Below, piece by piece: positions 1,734-17,843 of a DNA stretch of 64,000 nucleotides. Source of the stretch: Minwuia sp. (GTDB lineage: Bacteria; Pseudomonadota; Alphaproteobacteria; Minwuiales; Minwuiaceae). The stretch is from contig JARGPL010000035.1 in the NCBI GenBank assembly GCA_029210175.1, positions 1-64,000 of the forward strand, in the 5' to 3' direction. How positions within the stretch are numbered: position 1 is the stretch's first letter; each line of letters begins with the position of its first letter. Below the pieces are notes generated by a model. That model worked only from the letters and a program-made list of their open reading frames with translations. It was not told where the DNA came from and ran no database searches. The position numbers and the translations under genes were made by a program.

Positions 1734-3347
1734 ATGAGCGCGCACGCATTCAGCAATGCGTTTCATCCCTTCGGCTCAAGCCGCGTGGCTGAGCCGAAGG
1801 AGATCGCGCGCGGGGGGCTGTTTACCCGTGATGCCAACTCTCTGCTTGTTGGCTTCATCGGCAACCAGCCAATCTGGTATTCCGACCTTGGTGGCGTCGT
1901 TTCCATCGCCGGGCCAAGGTCGGGCAAGGGACGCGATTTGCTGATCTATAATTGCTGTCAGGGCATCCACCCTGAGACCATGCTCCTGCTGGATATCAAG
2001 GGCGGCGAGCTGGCCGCTGTGTCCCAGAACCAGACCGGGGATCGCAAGTTCTGCATCTATTGGAACGCGCTGGGTGTAAACGGCCTGCCTTCGCACCGGA
2101 TCAATCCGCTGGATTATCTCAACAACGAGAACCCTTCGCTGGTCTCTGATCTGAAAACCTTCCTTGAAAACGCCATGCCGCCAAGCGGTTCGGCCAACAG
2201 TGTCTACTTCGAAGGCCGCGCGAGGGAGCTGACCGAAGGGATTGTGCTCACCCTTGTGCGCCTGAATGGCGTGCTGAGCTATCCTGATCTCTACCGCGTC
2301 ATCAATGCGCTCATTATCGGCGGCGATGCGTGGCTCGACTTCGCCTTCGAGATGAACGAGTCCGGCTACGATATCGCCGTGCGCGTCGAAGAAGAAATCG
2401 CAGCGGCGCGTCAGGATTCGTCGGGTGGCTTCAAGGGCATTCTGGGCGAGATCACGCGCGCCTTCGCCTGCCTGTTTGATCCTGTGCTGCTGGAGTCGCT
2501 CTCACCGCCCTATGACTTCTCGTTTGCCGATCTGTGCCGCAGTGATCAGACCTACAATGTCTATCTCATGCCTGACGCCAACCACGTTGAGGCGTGGAGC
2601 GCGGTCATCAAATCCATGTTCGTCGCCGCGCAAATCTACAAGTCGCGGGCACCGTCCGCGCCGCGCCAAACGTGGCTACTGGACGAATTGGGTCAGCTTG
2701 GCAAGTTCCCGCTCGCCGTGAAGGCATTTACCCGCGATGCGGGGACGGGCATTCGCCCCTGGGGAGTGTTCCAGTCAGTCAAGCAGATGAAGGCGATTGC
2801 GCCTGATGGGGACAGCCTTCTGCTTGCCTCAGCGGCGGTGCAGACATGGTTCGGTGTCAGGGATGAGGGCACGGCCTCTTTGCTCTCACGCATGATGGGC
2901 AATGAAACCCTGCGCTACGACAATGACGAACGCATCGAGGCGGCGCGTCATGCCCGCGCTGCTGCCGTGCAAAGGATCATGGGCGGCAGCAATCCTTTCG
3001 CCGCCGCTGCCGATATTGCCCATCAGGCGCGGCTTGCCCGCATCCCCAATGTGGTGGGACGTGCCTTGCGCACGACTTCTGAAATCCTGGGCATGCCGGA
3101 CAACAAGATGGTGGTGATGGCTGACGGGGTATCCCACCCCATCTGGGCGGATCGATATCCGTACTACGACCTGCCGCAGATGGCAGGGCGTTATCACCCC
3201 AATCCGTACTTCCCACCCGGCGATGCTGTGCGCGTGAGGACGCGATCAGGCGGCCATGCCTGGCGTCCGGTGATCACAGCGCCTGTACCGCCGCGCTTCG
3301 CGCACTACCCGCAATACAGAGATGGAACATGGAGCTACATCGGATGA
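1734..3347 (+). CDS. VirD4/TraG-family type IV coupling ATPase
   Basis: A 537-residue P-loop ATPase of the TraG/VirD4/TraD class, which links a relaxosome to a type IV secretion channel at the inner membrane. Walker A is at residues 60-67 (GPRSGKGR), Walker B at about 313-318 (TWLLDE, acidic pair D317-E318) followed by GQLGKFPLAVKAFTRDAGTG, typical of the family. The phrase LLLDIKGGELAAVS after the P-loop also fits TraG. Unlike VirD4 (about 650 residues), it lacks N-terminal transmembrane helices: the P-loop starts within 60 residues. The membrane protein encoded just upstream may compensate. A 4-nt ATGA overlap couples it to the next gene. No relaxase is visible in the window; it may lie to the left. 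Confidence 0.9.
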   Translation: MSAHAFSNAFHPFGSSRVAEPKEIARGGLFTRDANSLLVGFIGNQPIWYSDLGGVVSIAGPRSGKGRDLLIYNCCQGIHPETMLLLDIKGGELAAVSQNQTGDRKFCIYWNALGVNGLPSHRINPLDYLNNENPSLVSDLKTFLENAMPPSGSANSVYFEGRARELTEGIVLTLVRLNGVLSYPDLYRVINALIIGGDAWLDFAFEMNESGYDIAVRVEEEIAAARQDSSGGFKGILGEITRAFACLFDPVLLESLSPPYDFSFADLCRSDQTYNVYLMPDANHVEAWSAVIKSMFVAAQIYKSRAPSAPRQTWLLDELGQLGKFPLAVKAFTRDAGTGIRPWGVFQSVKQMKAIAPDGDSLLLASAAVQTWFGVRDEGTASLLSRMMGNETLRYDNDERIEAARHARAAAVQRIMGGSNPFAAAADIAHQARLARIPNVVGRALRTTSEILGMPDNKMVVMADGVSHPIWADRYPYYDLPQMAGRYHPNPYFPPGDAVRVRTRSGGHAWRPVITAPVPPRFAHYPQYRDGTWSYIG

Positions 3348-3685
3348 CCAGCTACGCCTATGCCAACAGGGCAAGCCTGCCGGGTGAGGCAAGCATCGTC
3401 GATAGCCTGCAACCATCGAAGCAGGCCTTCGATGCCAAAGAGGCAGAGCCAGCGCCCGCGCGCGCCTCTGAGATGGTCGCAAAGGATCACCCGCATCCAG
3501 CGCCGCACCCCTCAACCGGACTGGCGCATGACGTGGATCGCACCGCCTTCAACGAACGCTGGCAGCGCGAGACGCGTGAAGCCCGCAAGGCGGCCTTTAT
3601 CGTCAAGCGCCAACAGCAACCTTCCGTGGATCACGACCGCGCGCCTGCCAATGACTTCAACCGCAAGGCTGTCATCAGCCGCTGA
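3344..3685 (+). CDS. Hypothetical conjugation-region protein
   Basis: A 113-residue hydrophilic protein rich in Ala, Pro, Arg and charged residues, with a proline-rich middle (PHPAPHPSTG) and a basic helical C-terminal half (ERWQRETREARKAAFIVKRQQQ). No membrane segment. Its ATG at 3344 overlaps the stop of the coupling protein gene by 4 nt, so the two are translationally coupled. I do not recognise the family. Its position suggests an accessory factor of the transfer module. Confidence 0.6.
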   Translation: MTSYAYANRASLPGEASIVDSLQPSKQAFDAKEAEPAPARASEMVAKDHPHPAPHPSTGLAHDVDRTAFNERWQRETREARKAAFIVKRQQQPSVDHDRAPANDFNRKAVISR

Positions 3686-3699
3686 AACAGGAGTCGACT

Positions 3700-4014
3700 A
3701 TGACCGACAACAATGACACCCAGCCAAAGCGTCCTCGCCCTGAAGACACGCTGGATGACGGTAATATCAAAGCTGCCATCTGGAAAAACAAAGGTGAAAA
3801 CGGCTCTTTCTACGCCACCAATATCTACCGCGTTTTTACAGACAAAGACGGCAAAAGCCGTGAAACCTACAGCTTTGTCGGCACTGACCTGCTGAAGGCC
3901 GCCGAGCTGGCACGAGGCGCATACGAGCGTACCAACGAGCTGAAGCGCGCCGAGTTCAAGGCGCAGCGCCAGGGGCAGCAACGCGCCGACCGCTCACCGG
4001 ACAAGAACAGATAA
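3700..4014 (+). CDS. Hypothetical accessory protein of integrative elements
   Basis: A 104-residue protein with a conserved-looking core (GNIKAAIWKNKGENGSFYATNIYRVFTDKDGKSRETYSFVGTDLLKAAELARGAYERT). From memory, this core resembles short hypothetical proteins that recur in alphaproteobacterial mobile elements. The pattern of alternating beta strands then a helix suggests a small single-domain fold, with a basic disordered tail (AQRQGQQRADRSPDKNR). The ribosome site AGGAG lies at about 3690. It follows the preceding gene by 14 nt and closes this transcription unit; the next promoter with a LexA box begins at about 4028. Function unknown. Confidence 0.65.
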   Translation: MTDNNDTQPKRPRPEDTLDDGNIKAAIWKNKGENGSFYATNIYRVFTDKDGKSRETYSFVGTDLLKAAELARGAYERTNELKRAEFKAQRQGQQRADRSPDKNR

Positions 4015-4032
4015 CCCAAGCCAACAATTGAC

Positions 4033-4061
4033 TTGAAGTAAACTTATGTTCATGTTATGTT
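4033..4061 (+). promoter_or_regulatory. Candidate sigma70 promoter of the recombinase operon
   Basis: A -35-like TTGAAG (4033-4038) and a -10-like TATGTT (4056-4061), separated by 17 nt, lie 61 nt before the 4122 start codon. A second possible -35 (TTGACT) overlaps at 4028-4033. The -10 element is embedded in a LexA-type box. The promoter is predicted from sequence only. Confidence 0.5.
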
Positions 4062-4062
4062 C
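4048..4062 (+). promoter_or_regulatory. LexA (SOS) box, GTTC-N7-GTTC
   Basis: The sequence GTTC-ATGTTAT-GTTC matches exactly the direct-repeat LexA operator known for alphaproteobacteria (GTTC, seven bases, GTTC). It overlaps the predicted -10 element upstream of the small acidic protein and the serine recombinase, where a bound repressor would block RNA polymerase. This implies that DNA damage derepresses the recombination module. The match is seen directly; regulation is inferred. Confidence 0.6.
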
Positions 4063-4121
4063 TTTTCTTCGATCAACATAGCAAAGGGGCAAAGAGCAAG
4101 GAACAGAAAGGCGAAACAACA

Positions 4122-4496
4122 ATGAAAGACGGCGAGAACCGCACCAGCAATGATACCACTTCACACGAGGCGCTGGATGCGGATCAGTCGCCGCTTGTGC
4201 CTGACATCCTACCCGACGCCGACTTGTTCGATGTTGCCGATTACGCAGACGACCTTGCTGAACTGGACATCTCCGAGGCGCAGGCCGCAGAGATTCTGGG
4301 CATCATCTGGCGGATGATGTCGGCCATGGTCGATCTGGGTCTGGGTGTCGATTCTATCCACAACTTGTTGCCCAGCCTTGCCGCAATTTCTGGGGGTATA
4401 GAACCGCACGATCTAGACTCGGAGATCGCCAGACTGGCGGACGAGTTCAGCCGTTCGGCAGAGGCGGGCAGTCAATCTGAAAAGGAGGAATCATGA
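4122..4496 (+). CDS. Small acidic protein encoded in operon with the serine recombinase
   Basis: A 124-residue, strongly acidic protein (pattern DILPDADLFDVADYADDLAELDISEAQAAEILGIIWRMMSAMVDLGLG). It is predicted to be mostly helical, with an amphipathic central segment but no clear membrane span. It is the first gene behind the LexA-box promoter, and its last codon overlaps the recombinase ATG by 4 nt (ATGA). I do not recognise the family. Genes placed like this can encode recombination directionality factors, antirepressors or DNA mimics; the acidity would suit a DNA mimic, but no motif supports any one role. Confidence 0.7.
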   Translation: MKDGENRTSNDTTSHEALDADQSPLVPDILPDADLFDVADYADDLAELDISEAQAAEILGIIWRMMSAMVDLGLGVDSIHNLLPSLAAISGGIEPHDLDSEIARLADEFSRSAEAGSQSEKEES

Positions 4497-6139
4497 CATC
4501 ATTACCCAGACGAATTGCGGTCACATACGGTCGCGTTTCCAGCAAAAAACAATCGAAAGAGCACGGTGGCCTCGGCTCACAAGAAACAAGGTGTCGGGAG
4601 TTCGCCCGCTACAAGGGCTACGAGGTCATCGCAACCTTTACCGACGATATGACAGGCAAGGAGAGCGAGCGCCCTGGAATGCGGGCGATGCTTTCATTTG
4701 TACGCGAGCATCGGGCCGAAATGCCTGTGGTGATCGTGGACGACATCTCAAGGCTTGCCCGTGGAATTACTGCTCACTGGCGGCTTCGCGCCGAAATCGG
4801 TGAAGCTGGCGGCGTCCTTGAGAGTCCGACCAGTGAATTTGGAGATGATGCCGATAGCATCATGCGTGAAAATCTTATGGCGACTTTCGCGCAGCATTTT
4901 CGCGAAAAGAACGCGGAGCAAACTGTTAACCGCATGCGCGCCCGTGTCATGAACGGCTTTTGGCCGTTCCAACCGCCGATTGGTTACAAGCATGTGAAGG
5001 TTAGGGGACAGGGTAGTGTGCTCGAACCCAATGAGCCGCTGGCATCCATTATCCGCGAAGCGCTCGAAGGGTATGCATCAGGGCGCTTCGAGCTTCAGGT
5101 CGAAGTTCTGCGCTTCTTCGAGCGGCATCCTGAGTTCCCGCGCCAGAAGAATGGCAGAATCCCCAATCAACGGGTGAAGGATATTCTGAGCAATGTCGTC
5201 TACGCAGGGCATGTCCATGCAGCCTGCTGGGACGTGTCTGTGCGTAAAGGACTGCACACGCCGCTCATCAGCTTTGAGACCTATCAGCTCATCCAGCAGC
5301 GCCTGAACGGCAAACCTCGTGCGCCTGTGCGCAAGGATATCTCGGCGGACTTCCCGCTGCGCGGCAGCGTCGTCTGCGGCGATTGTGAAACGCTCCTCAC
5401 GGCCTGTTGGTCGAAAGGGCGCAACGGCAAACGGCATCCCTATTATCTTTGCCCGAAGAAGGGCTGTGATAGCTATGGCAAGTCGATCCGTCGTGCCGTG
5501 ATCGAAGGACAGTTTGAAGGCTTGCTGGAAACGATGCGGCCTGCCGAAGGTCTTCATCGCATCGCCTGCAAGATGTTCCGTAAGCTCTGGGATCACCGTA
5601 TTCAGTCCGAGACAGGACGCGGGGATGCGCTCAAGCAGGAGATCAAAGCTGTGGAGAAGAAGACGGATCAGCTTCTGGATCGGATCGTGGAAACCGAAAC
5701 GCCAAGCGTGATTCAGGCGCTGGAGCGCAAAATCGGAGAAGCCGAAACACGGAAGCTGGAACTACTGGATCAACTCGAAAATGCGAAGCCCGAAACCAGA
5801 GACTTCGATGCGGCACTTAGAACCGCTTTGGCATTCCTCGGAAACCCGCAGAAACTCTGGGCTTCGGAGCGTATCGACCATCGCAAGGCAGTCATCAAAC
5901 TCTGCTTTGCCGACCGTCTTCAATATGTGCGAAATGAGGGGTTTAGAACCGCTAATCTGACCTTACCTTTCAAGGCCTTAGCGGGTTTCTGTTCCCCAAA
6001 AAAGGAAGTGGCGCACCCGAGAGGATTCGAACCTCTGGCCTCCGCCTTCGGAGGGCGGCGCTCTATCCAGCTGAGCTACGGGTGCATACCGTTCGCGAGA
6101 TGCTTACGCCATGCTTACGCGAGATTTTCGTCGGTTTGA
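4493..6139 (+). CDS. Large serine recombinase (site-specific integrase)
   Basis: A 548-residue large serine recombinase, expected to integrate and excise the element. The N-terminal resolvase domain has the catalytic serine in YGRVSS (Y12, R14, S16) and a downstream SRLARG arginine motif. A 'recombinase' domain follows (about 165-260). A zinc ribbon has Cys pairs near 294/297 and 319/324, and a coiled-coil lies at about 375-440. The ATG overlaps the previous gene by 4 nt. The frame does not stop before the tRNA-Arg: it crosses the whole tRNA antisense (HPRGFEPLASAFGGRRSIQLSYGC) and ends at 6139. The last 45 or so residues are therefore set by the attachment site and its chromosomal flank, not by a conserved domain. 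Confidence 0.9.
   Translation: MTSLPRRIAVTYGRVSSKKQSKEHGGLGSQETRCREFARYKGYEVIATFTDDMTGKESERPGMRAMLSFVREHRAEMPVVIVDDISRLARGITAHWRLRAEIGEAGGVLESPTSEFGDDADSIMRENLMATFAQHFREKNAEQTVNRMRARVMNGFWPFQPPIGYKHVKVRGQGSVLEPNEPLASIIREALEGYASGRFELQVEVLRFFERHPEFPRQKNGRIPNQRVKDILSNVVYAGHVHAACWDVSVRKGLHTPLISFETYQLIQQRLNGKPRAPVRKDISADFPLRGSVVCGDCETLLTACWSKGRNGKRHPYYLCPKKGCDSYGKSIRRAVIEGQFEGLLETMRPAEGLHRIACKMFRKLWDHRIQSETGRGDALKQEIKAVEKKTDQLLDRIVETETPSVIQALERKIGEAETRKLELLDQLENAKPETRDFDAALRTALAFLGNPQKLWASERIDHRKAVIKLCFADRLQYVRNEGFRTANLTLPFKALAGFCSPKKEVAHPRGFEPLASAFGGRRSIQLSYGCIPFARCLRHAYARFSSV
6009..6085 (-). tRNA. tRNA-Arg (anticodon CCG)
   Basis: A complete 77-nt cloverleaf on the minus strand with encoded CCA. 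Acceptor stem GCACCCG/CGGGTGC, D-arm GCTC...GAGC, anticodon stem CCGCC/GGCGG with loop CTCCGAA giving anticodon CCG (decodes CGG, Arg), T-loop GTTCGAATC. Its 3' end abuts the integrative element, so it is the likely integration target, with the gene kept whole by the element. The serine recombinase frame passes through it on the opposite strand. Confidence 0.95.
6041..6081. repeat. 41-bp direct repeat, copy 1 (inside tRNA-Arg)
   Basis: Covers the anticodon arm, D-arm and part of the acceptor stem of tRNA-Arg. It is repeated at 6220-6260 in the same orientation with one mismatch (G at 6057 versus A at 6236). It is a possible attachment-site core or the footprint of an earlier integration. Confidence 0.8.
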
Positions 6140-6478
<339 letters not shown>

Positions 6479-16399: not shown

Positions 16400-17079
16400 G
16401 ACCCACTGATGCTCCGCACCCGCCGGGCTGCCATCTCCGACAGGATCAGTCCGGCCAGAGCCAGCAGGATGGCCAGTCCGGCGAGGCGCGCCGCTGCTGC
16501 CTCACCGCCGGGGGACTGGATCGCGGTATAGATCGCCAGGGGCAATGTCCGCGTCTCGCCCGGAATATTTGACACGAAGGTGATGATGGCCCCGAATTCC
16601 CCCAGACTGGCAGCGAAGGCCGTGATTGCCCCGGCAATGATGCCGGGAAGGGCGAGGGGCAGTGTGATGGAGCAGAACCGGTCGATGGGCCCGGCGCCGA
16701 GTGTGCGGGCGGCGGCATCCAGACCGGGGTCGATGGCTTCCATTGCCAGCCGGATGGCGCGGACCTGAAACGGGAAGCTGACGATCGCCGCTGCCAGTGC
16801 TGCGCCGGTCCAGGAAAACACGAGCCGGATGCCGAACGTGTCCAGCAACCACCCGCCGACCGGCGCCTTGGTGCCCAGACTGACCAGCAGCAGATAGCCC
16901 ATGACAACAGGCGGCAGAACCAGCGGCAGATGCACCAGCCCGTCCAGCAGGACCCGGCCCGGAAAGTGTGTTCGTGCCAGTACCCAGGCAATCAGAACCG
17001 CAAATGGCAGCGCGCCGCCAACCGCGACAAGTGCGATGCGCAGGCTGAGCATCAGGGCCTCGATTTCCATGTCGGTCAT
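16396..17079 (-). CDS. modB: Molybdate ABC transporter permease ModB
   Basis: A 227-residue inner membrane permease with five to six hydrophobic helices. The cytoplasmic EAA loop that docks ModC is at about residues 134-160 (DAAARTLGAGPIDRFCSITLPLALPGIIAGA), matching the binding-protein-dependent permease signature. It has the usual length for ModB. It overlaps modA upstream and modC downstream by 4 nt each, a fully coupled transporter operon. Confidence 0.95.
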   Translation of the reverse strand: MTDMEIEALMLSLRIALVAVGGALPFAVLIAWVLARTHFPGRVLLDGLVHLPLVLPPVVMGYLLLVSLGTKAPVGGWLLDTFGIRLVFSWTGAALAAAIVSFPFQVRAIRLAMEAIDPGLDAAARTLGAGPIDRFCSITLPLALPGIIAGAITAFAASLGEFGAIITFVSNIPGETRTLPLAIYTAIQSPGGEAAAARLAGLAILLALAGLILSEMAARRVRSISGS

Positions 17080-17843
17080 GGGCGCGGGGCCTCCGTGAAG
17101 CCTGCATCGCGCAGGATCAGCGCCGCCTCTTCACCCTGCAGGAACGCCATGAAACGCACGGTTTCGTCGGTGCGTCGTCCGGCGATGATTGCCGCAGGAT
17201 AAACGATGGGGGCATGCAGTCCGGGTGGCAGCACCGCCAGCAAGGTCACCGTATCGGCAGCGACCGCAACGTCTGTCAGGTAGGTCAGGCCCAGCGCCGC
17301 TTCGCCGCGCGCGACAAGCGCCAGGGCGGCACGGACATCGGCTGCATAGGCCAACTGTCCCTGCAGCCCGGACCAGAGCTTCAATTCGATGAGGGCCTGC
17401 CGGGCATAGATGCCTGCCGGAACGTGGGCCGGGTCGCCGATGGCCAGCCGCTCCCCGACCATAAGGTCGCCAAGGGCCGGCGCAAGCCCAACGGGTTTCG
17501 GGAACCGGTCTCGATGGCCGACAAGCGCGAGTGCATTTTTCGCCAGGACCATTCTGCTGCCGGATTCGATTACTGTCGCTTCCGCCAGATAGTCCATCCA
17601 GGCGGTATTGGCAGAGATGATGATATCCGCCGGTGCCCCGGCCTCCACCTGCCGGGCCAGCGTGGAGGATGCTGCGAAGGAGAACCTGACCGGGCTGGCA
17701 TGTTGCCGTTGATAAGCATCCCCGATCCGGGTCATCACATCGCGCAGGCTCGCCGCAGCGAAGACGGTCAACCGCTCGGCTGCCGCGACCTGAACAGTCA
17801 GCAGCAGCACCAGGGCGACAAGGATGGCAGGGACAGGACGCAT
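17076..17843 (-). CDS. modA: Molybdate-binding periplasmic protein ModA
   Basis: A 255-residue substrate-binding protein that captures molybdate or tungstate in the periplasm. The signal peptide (VPAILVALVLLLTVQVAAA, cut after about residue 22) is followed by the family start LTVFAAASLRDVMTRIGDAY. Oxyanion-binding segments include AASSTLARQVEAGAPADIIISAN and GEAALGLTYLTDV. The ATG at 17843 is taken because it sits directly before the signal peptide. It diverges from the nitronate monooxygenase gene across 99 bp. Confidence 0.93.
   Translation of the reverse strand: MRPVPAILVALVLLLTVQVAAAERLTVFAAASLRDVMTRIGDAYQRQHASPVRFSFAASSTLARQVEAGAPADIIISANTAWMDYLAEATVIESGSRMVLAKNALALVGHRDRFPKPVGLAPALGDLMVGERLAIGDPAHVPAGIYARQALIELKLWSGLQGQLAYAADVRAALALVARGEAALGLTYLTDVAVAADTVTLLAVLPPGLHAPIVYPAAIIAGRRTDETVRFMAFLQGEEAALILRDAGFTEAPRP

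Follow-up and report, generated by a model that had tools for sequence, protein, structure and literature searches.

In a stretch of 64,000 nucleotides of Minwuia sp. DNA (hereafter the window), an exact GTTC-N7-GTTC direct repeat precedes a two-gene module encoding a small acidic protein and a large serine recombinase. Judged from sequence comparison, this box is very probably a real LexA operator. We propose that host LexA represses both genes through it, that DNA damage would induce the operon and that the recombinase would then excise the element; we give this reading a probability of about 0.78. The features of the analyzed region are as follows.

1734–3347, + strand: VirD4/TraG-type coupling protein of the element (PF02534, E 7e-32)
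3329–4014, + strand: two small conserved ORFs of 118 aa (3329–3685) and 104 aa (3700–4014), between the coupling protein gene and the box
4033–4061, + strand: proposed (inferred) promoter, TTGAAG (4033–4038), 17 bases, TATGTT (4056–4061), read from the sequence
4048–4062, + strand: putative LexA operator GTTC-N7-GTTC, GTTCATGTTATGTTC; exact match, placement conserved among relatives
4122–4496, + strand: small acidic protein of 124 aa, pI 4.1, with a 50-aa core common to the family (from the sequence)
4493–6139, + strand: large serine recombinase with Resolvase, Recombinase and zinc ribbon domains (profile search; phrog_95 integrase, E 6e-57)
6009–6016, + strand: predicted core of the attachment site, TGGCGCAC, located where the tRNA gene has its CCA end (analogous to TGGTGCCG in relative G003; junction TGG)
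6009–6085, − strand: intact tRNA-Arg(CCG); its 3′ end marks the end of the recombinase gene (tRNA search)
6086–6220, no strand assigned: apparent right end of a second, outer insertion (segment shared with locus L037; empty site in four congeners)
6221–6264, − strand: 5′ portion of the tRNA-Arg gene originally present in the host, broken at the anticodon loop (congener comparison)

The box and the LexA protein of the host

The exact GTTC-N7-GTTC that the earlier note had read at 4048–4062 is present on the + strand as GTTCATGTTATGTTC, and it does precede the genes named there: it lies 59 bases upstream of the ATG of the acidic ORF, and the stop codon of that ORF and the recombinase start codon (ATG, 4493) overlap. 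The window contains three matches to this pattern versus 1.53 expected, and at least three were obtained in 22 of 100 shuffles; this count is not significant and is compatible with chance. Across the whole host genome 128 matches were found, versus 57 for the reversed control pattern, so most lone matches carry no meaning alone. A further warning comes from GTTCGTCGATTGTTC, which occurs three times in the host genome (G000:C15:22, C25:106830 and C26:17268), probably within insertion-sequence DNA, and so indicates that many single matches are not operators. It is conservation that raises the window box above chance, since an exact box in the same orientation was found in 19 of 35 relatives, versus 0.40 in shuffled sequences.

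The identification of the repeat as the alphaproteobacterial LexA operator, also made from the sequence at the outset, agrees with the host's own genes. One lexA match over the curated cut-off was found in the host genome, at C23, and its promoter carries the box GAACTTTCATAGAAC, 145 bases upstream of the gene. Of the 21 genomes searched, 20 have a lexA match over the cut-off; among these 20 hosts of relatives an exact box stands at most 250 bases upstream of lexA in 14, with one gene left unparsed. Within the lexA upstream regions a spacing of 7 scored 15, versus 0–3 for other spacings, and the LexA helix SKSGIHRL was invariant in all 19 proteins read. These comparisons support the assignment of the host LexA to the alphaproteobacterial type that uses GTTC-N7-GTTC. 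The same motif is reported for Caulobacter LexA (PMC12700426) and as the consensus of alphaproteobacterial LexA (PMC9578287). Two early, mitomycin-induced Caulobacter SOS genes are reported to have the LexA box GTTCTTGTTATGTTC, also written GTTCttgttatGTTC (PMC12700426), which is identical to the boxes of loci L033 and L049 and differs by one base from that of the window.

No exact box was present in the upstream stretch fetched for the host recA gene. A survey for further SOS genes of the host, made at the first 30 of the 128 box places together with the A+T-rich ones, gave clear cases only at lexA and at a second related element. This element, in the same genome (G000:C1:5839-7883; loci L003 and L035), is located at tRNA-Thr(GGT) and carries the box GTTCATGTAATGTTC in the same place.

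Conservation of the box, the promoter and the acidic protein

Recombinase homologues were collected at several taxonomic levels: 3 of 9 genomes of the same order, 21 of 385 of the class and 5 of 17 of one family contributed, and named genomes added five loci. This gave 37 loci, 35 of them with a readable N-terminus. The box was sought on the coding strand up to 1200 bases upstream, with 200 dinucleotide shuffles as the control. An exact GTTC-N7-GTTC was found upstream of the two-gene module in 19 of the 35 relatives (shuffles: mean 0.40, maximum 2, n = 200); an earlier count on a smaller set had given 16 of 32. Other same-strand spacings, from 0 to 20, gave 0–2 loci each, and on the opposite strand spacing 7 gave three loci and the other spacings 0–5. 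A T precedes the box in all 19 cases, and the spacer is 83% A+T. A later, separate sample of the phylum yielded matches in 14 of 398 genomes, all belonging to the same class, with 12 new loci, three of which carry the box, 391–478 bases upstream.

Of the 47 relatives with a readable start, both sets together, 22 possess an exact same-strand box and 25 do not. LexA control is thus not essential to this recombinase family, and since the hosts of several box-less loci have a canonical lexA box, it has been gained or lost. Absence of a suitable LexA from the host was ruled out as the explanation of box loss in several cases, e.g. G017, G128 and G133, where the lexA box is present and the element box is absent. 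On a tree of 34 recombinases the box and no-box states require eight changes, and one clade of 11 has the box in 10 members. A matrix built from the 19 boxes revealed no convincing degenerate same-strand site in the box-less relatives; it marked one-mismatch sites in L042 and L045 and an exact box on the other strand in L041. In two loci, L061 and L052, an extra partial recombinase frame is located directly upstream of the full one, and the box and the acidic domain precede both.

Upstream sequences were also read by eye for promoters. In the window the proposed −10 hexamer, TATGTT, forms part of the box, and L033 is arranged likewise, with TTGTCA, 17 bases and a TATGTT that again lies within the box. 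In the loci L035, L053 and L054, 17 bases separate a TTG-type −35 from TATAAA, which ends one base before the box; promoter-like hexamers adjoin or enter the box in several relatives. Because a consensus scan found no sigma-70 site at the window box, this placement of the promoter is put forward as a proposal, and the earlier statement that the box overlaps the −10 is plausible but unproven. LexA, if bound, would cover the start region in either layout.

The acidic protein had no Pfam match above cut-offs and only an insignificant match in PHROGs. A profile iterated on the same 35 loci detected its 50-residue core (in L101, for instance, PVITVDYERYAHFLEDSDLTEEQKQEFLQTLWNIIVEFVSMGFGVHPLQQA) before the recombinase in 32 of them and in no reverse-strand frame; in the later set 11 of 12 loci have it. 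AlphaFold, applied to the protein of L037 (with four others), returned a helical core at low confidence (mean pLDDT 56). Among Pfam and PHROGs the core appears to be a new, undescribed partner domain. From the position of the gene and the acidity of its product we guess that the protein is a candidate directionality factor.

Insertion at the 3′ ends of tRNA genes

The window recombinase matches the Pfam Resolvase and zinc ribbon models above their cut-offs and the Recombinase model just below (18.1 vs 21.1 bits); the last domain is above the Pfam cut-off in the G003 relative. Its matches to the NCBIfam equivalogs for the Ccr recombinases of SCC are weak and far under the cut-offs (60.8 bits vs 900 for CcrB).

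In 31 of the 35 first loci and in all 12 later ones, i.e. in 43 of 47, a convergent tRNA gene faces the recombinase gene, which ends at the tRNA 3′ end. Of the four misses, three are loci in which the contig end comes first, and L099 is a true miss. The occupied genes encode tRNAs for Arg, Val, Thr, Ser, Leu, Ala, Tyr and Met, with Gln for one distant relative, and TGG stands at the junction in all 31 loci listed. Even the nearest recombinases in the tree, those of L037 and L040, are located at different genes (tRNA-Arg vs tRNA-Thr). In the window and in relatives the open frame of the recombinase continues through the tRNA gene; the C-terminus therefore depends on the resident tRNA and would change on excision. 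We consider the odds about even that an undescribed alphaproteobacterial group of mobile elements, about half of it under host LexA, employs this serine recombinase family and its new acidic partner for insertion at the CCA end of many tRNA genes, probably through recognition of the conserved tRNA 3′ end. The distant relative at tRNA-Gln (L036, G000:C39:39530-40966) encodes a serine recombinase of 24% identity that also ends at the tRNA gene and has neither box nor acidic domain, so that tRNA targeting may be wider than this recombinase family.

One relative, in genome G003, was mapped at both ends. Its element measures 32.2 kb and is bounded by 8-base repeats, TGGTGCCG, where tRNA-Thr has its CCA end; the empty site was found in the sister genome G007, with a flank identity of about 97% on one side and 95% on the other. 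The element codes for a relaxase, VirD4, ArdA and HipA, and contains a single GTTCN7GTTC on either strand, located before the acidic gene. Among the 20 of 32 listed ORFs scanned, it has its own relaxase and recombinase and no recognised mating channel, and no phage-type repressor was recognised. A search for left ends through tRNA repeats in G036, G384, G017 and G128 gave no clear result.

The contig starts at window base 1, so the left end of the window element is missing and the element may not be intact. ORFs similar to its 118-aa and 104-aa pair precede the box in several relatives. To its right the host chromosome seems to carry a second insertion. Comparison with four congeners shows that the host's own tRNA-Arg stood before the SCO-like gene, with its 5′ part left at 6221–6264; the 3′ part of a tRNA-Arg gene is located at G000:C26 near 17041-17087, before foreign DNA. 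The split halves of tRNA-Arg(CCG) (window 6086-6264 and G000:C26 near 17041-17303; L131 and L134) share GCCTTCGGAG at the anticodon loop. Segment 6086–6220 occurs in the same arrangement, at the same 142-base distance, in L037 (Pseudaestuariivita rosea). The simplest reading, not a proven one, is that an outer insertion interrupted the host tRNA-Arg in its anticodon loop and supplied a replacement, apparently the tRNA-Arg at 6009–6085 just inside the right junction; the serine element would afterwards have entered at the 3′ end of this replacement. A single element reaching the split tRNA at 6221 was thought less likely, because L040 (branch lengths 0.026 and 0.024 versus L037), located at tRNA-Thr, does not have segment 6086–6220. 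The T arm of the left remnant of the split gene is unlike that of the congeners, and the attachment pattern of the outer element had no match in viral_contigs.

Proposed regulation, alternatives and known systems

In an undamaged cell LexA would sit over the promoter of the acidic protein–recombinase operon and keep it near-silent, and the element would stay integrated at the tRNA 3′ end. RecA assembled on single-stranded DNA would provoke self-cleavage of LexA, and the operon would be transcribed alongside the repair genes of the cell. The recombinase, probably steered by the acidic protein, would then recombine the short repeats at the CCA end of the tRNA gene and release a circular element, which relaxase and VirD4 could pass into a conjugation channel supplied by another element.

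LexA control might serve establishment after entry, instead of or besides escape, a possibility compatible with the operator itself. The relaxase and VirD4 of the G003 relative imply single-strand transfer, and incoming single-stranded DNA is reported to induce SOS (PMC9578287); an entry burst and damage-induced excision can, however, both come from one box, and we regard establishment as a tentative alternative. We consider it unlikely that the box is real but that an element-borne regulator mainly governs the recombinase, with LexA in a minor part and the box-less relatives using that regulator only. The 25 box-less relatives would fit such an arrangement, and the acidic protein or an ORF outside the 20 scanned could serve; against it, those 20 of the 32 listed ORFs of the G003 relative contain no repressor-type domain, and the box keeps a tight position at the proposed promoter. 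Regulation through host LexA rather than an own repressor, as claimed in the earlier note, draws good support from comparison, namely from the host LexA with its box and from the conserved operator; the second half of that claim holds in part, as the window element meets the contig edge and the repressor scan covered 20 of 32 ORFs of a relative. A chance match, with the promoter controlled in another way, would suit the match counts in the window and genome-wide, and is very improbable, since position, orientation and spacing recur unchanged in 19 of 35 diverged relatives, and the box is again present in 3 of 12 later ones. The simplest account seems to be that the window element reads host LexA directly.

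The insertion site of SCC is rlmH, and the integron integrase IntI is a tyrosine recombinase that shuffles cassettes. Control of a recombinase gene by host LexA is already known in integrons, where a LexA box lies over the intI promoter (PMC9578287, PMC3108266), and LexA control is reported for ccrC of SCCmec (Liu et al. 2017, as cited in PMC9728531 and PMC9578287). The window module resembles the first in its box at the proposed promoter of a site-specific recombinase and differs in that integrons shuffle cassettes, whereas here a mobile element would control its own excision. With SCCmec, a chromosomal cassette, it shares a large serine recombinase, here proposed to be LexA-controlled, and the window copy matches Ccr profiles weakly; SCC belongs to Firmicutes and has another LexA box, in contrast to the tRNA 3′ ends, the alphaproteobacterial direct-repeat box and the acidic partner found here. 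SXT/R391 ICEs are likewise integrated elements whose mobility is triggered by damage, as is predicted for the window element, but there RecA acts on their own repressor, SetR (PMC9578287). The ICEs treated in that SOS review use an own repressor; here it seems to be the LexA of the host that restrains the recombinase. As about half of the relatives share the box, DNA damage probably helps to free these elements. The recombinase group occurs in many alphaproteobacterial families and the host genome contains two such elements, so a single damage signal could release several of them together.

The combination of relaxase and serine recombinase with no recognised mating channel (20 of 32 ORFs of the G003 relative scanned) recalls IMEs with serine integrases. 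These are described as inserting inside genes, and tyrosine IMEs at tRNA ends (PMC5704250); tRNA sites are assigned mainly to tyrosine integrases (PMC5704250, PMC11476347). The placement of the window recombinase group at tRNA ends runs against this pattern. No tRNA-targeting serine recombinase was described in the open-access literature searched, which does not imply its absence from print. A serine recombinase able to use many tRNA ends could be of practical value as a tool.
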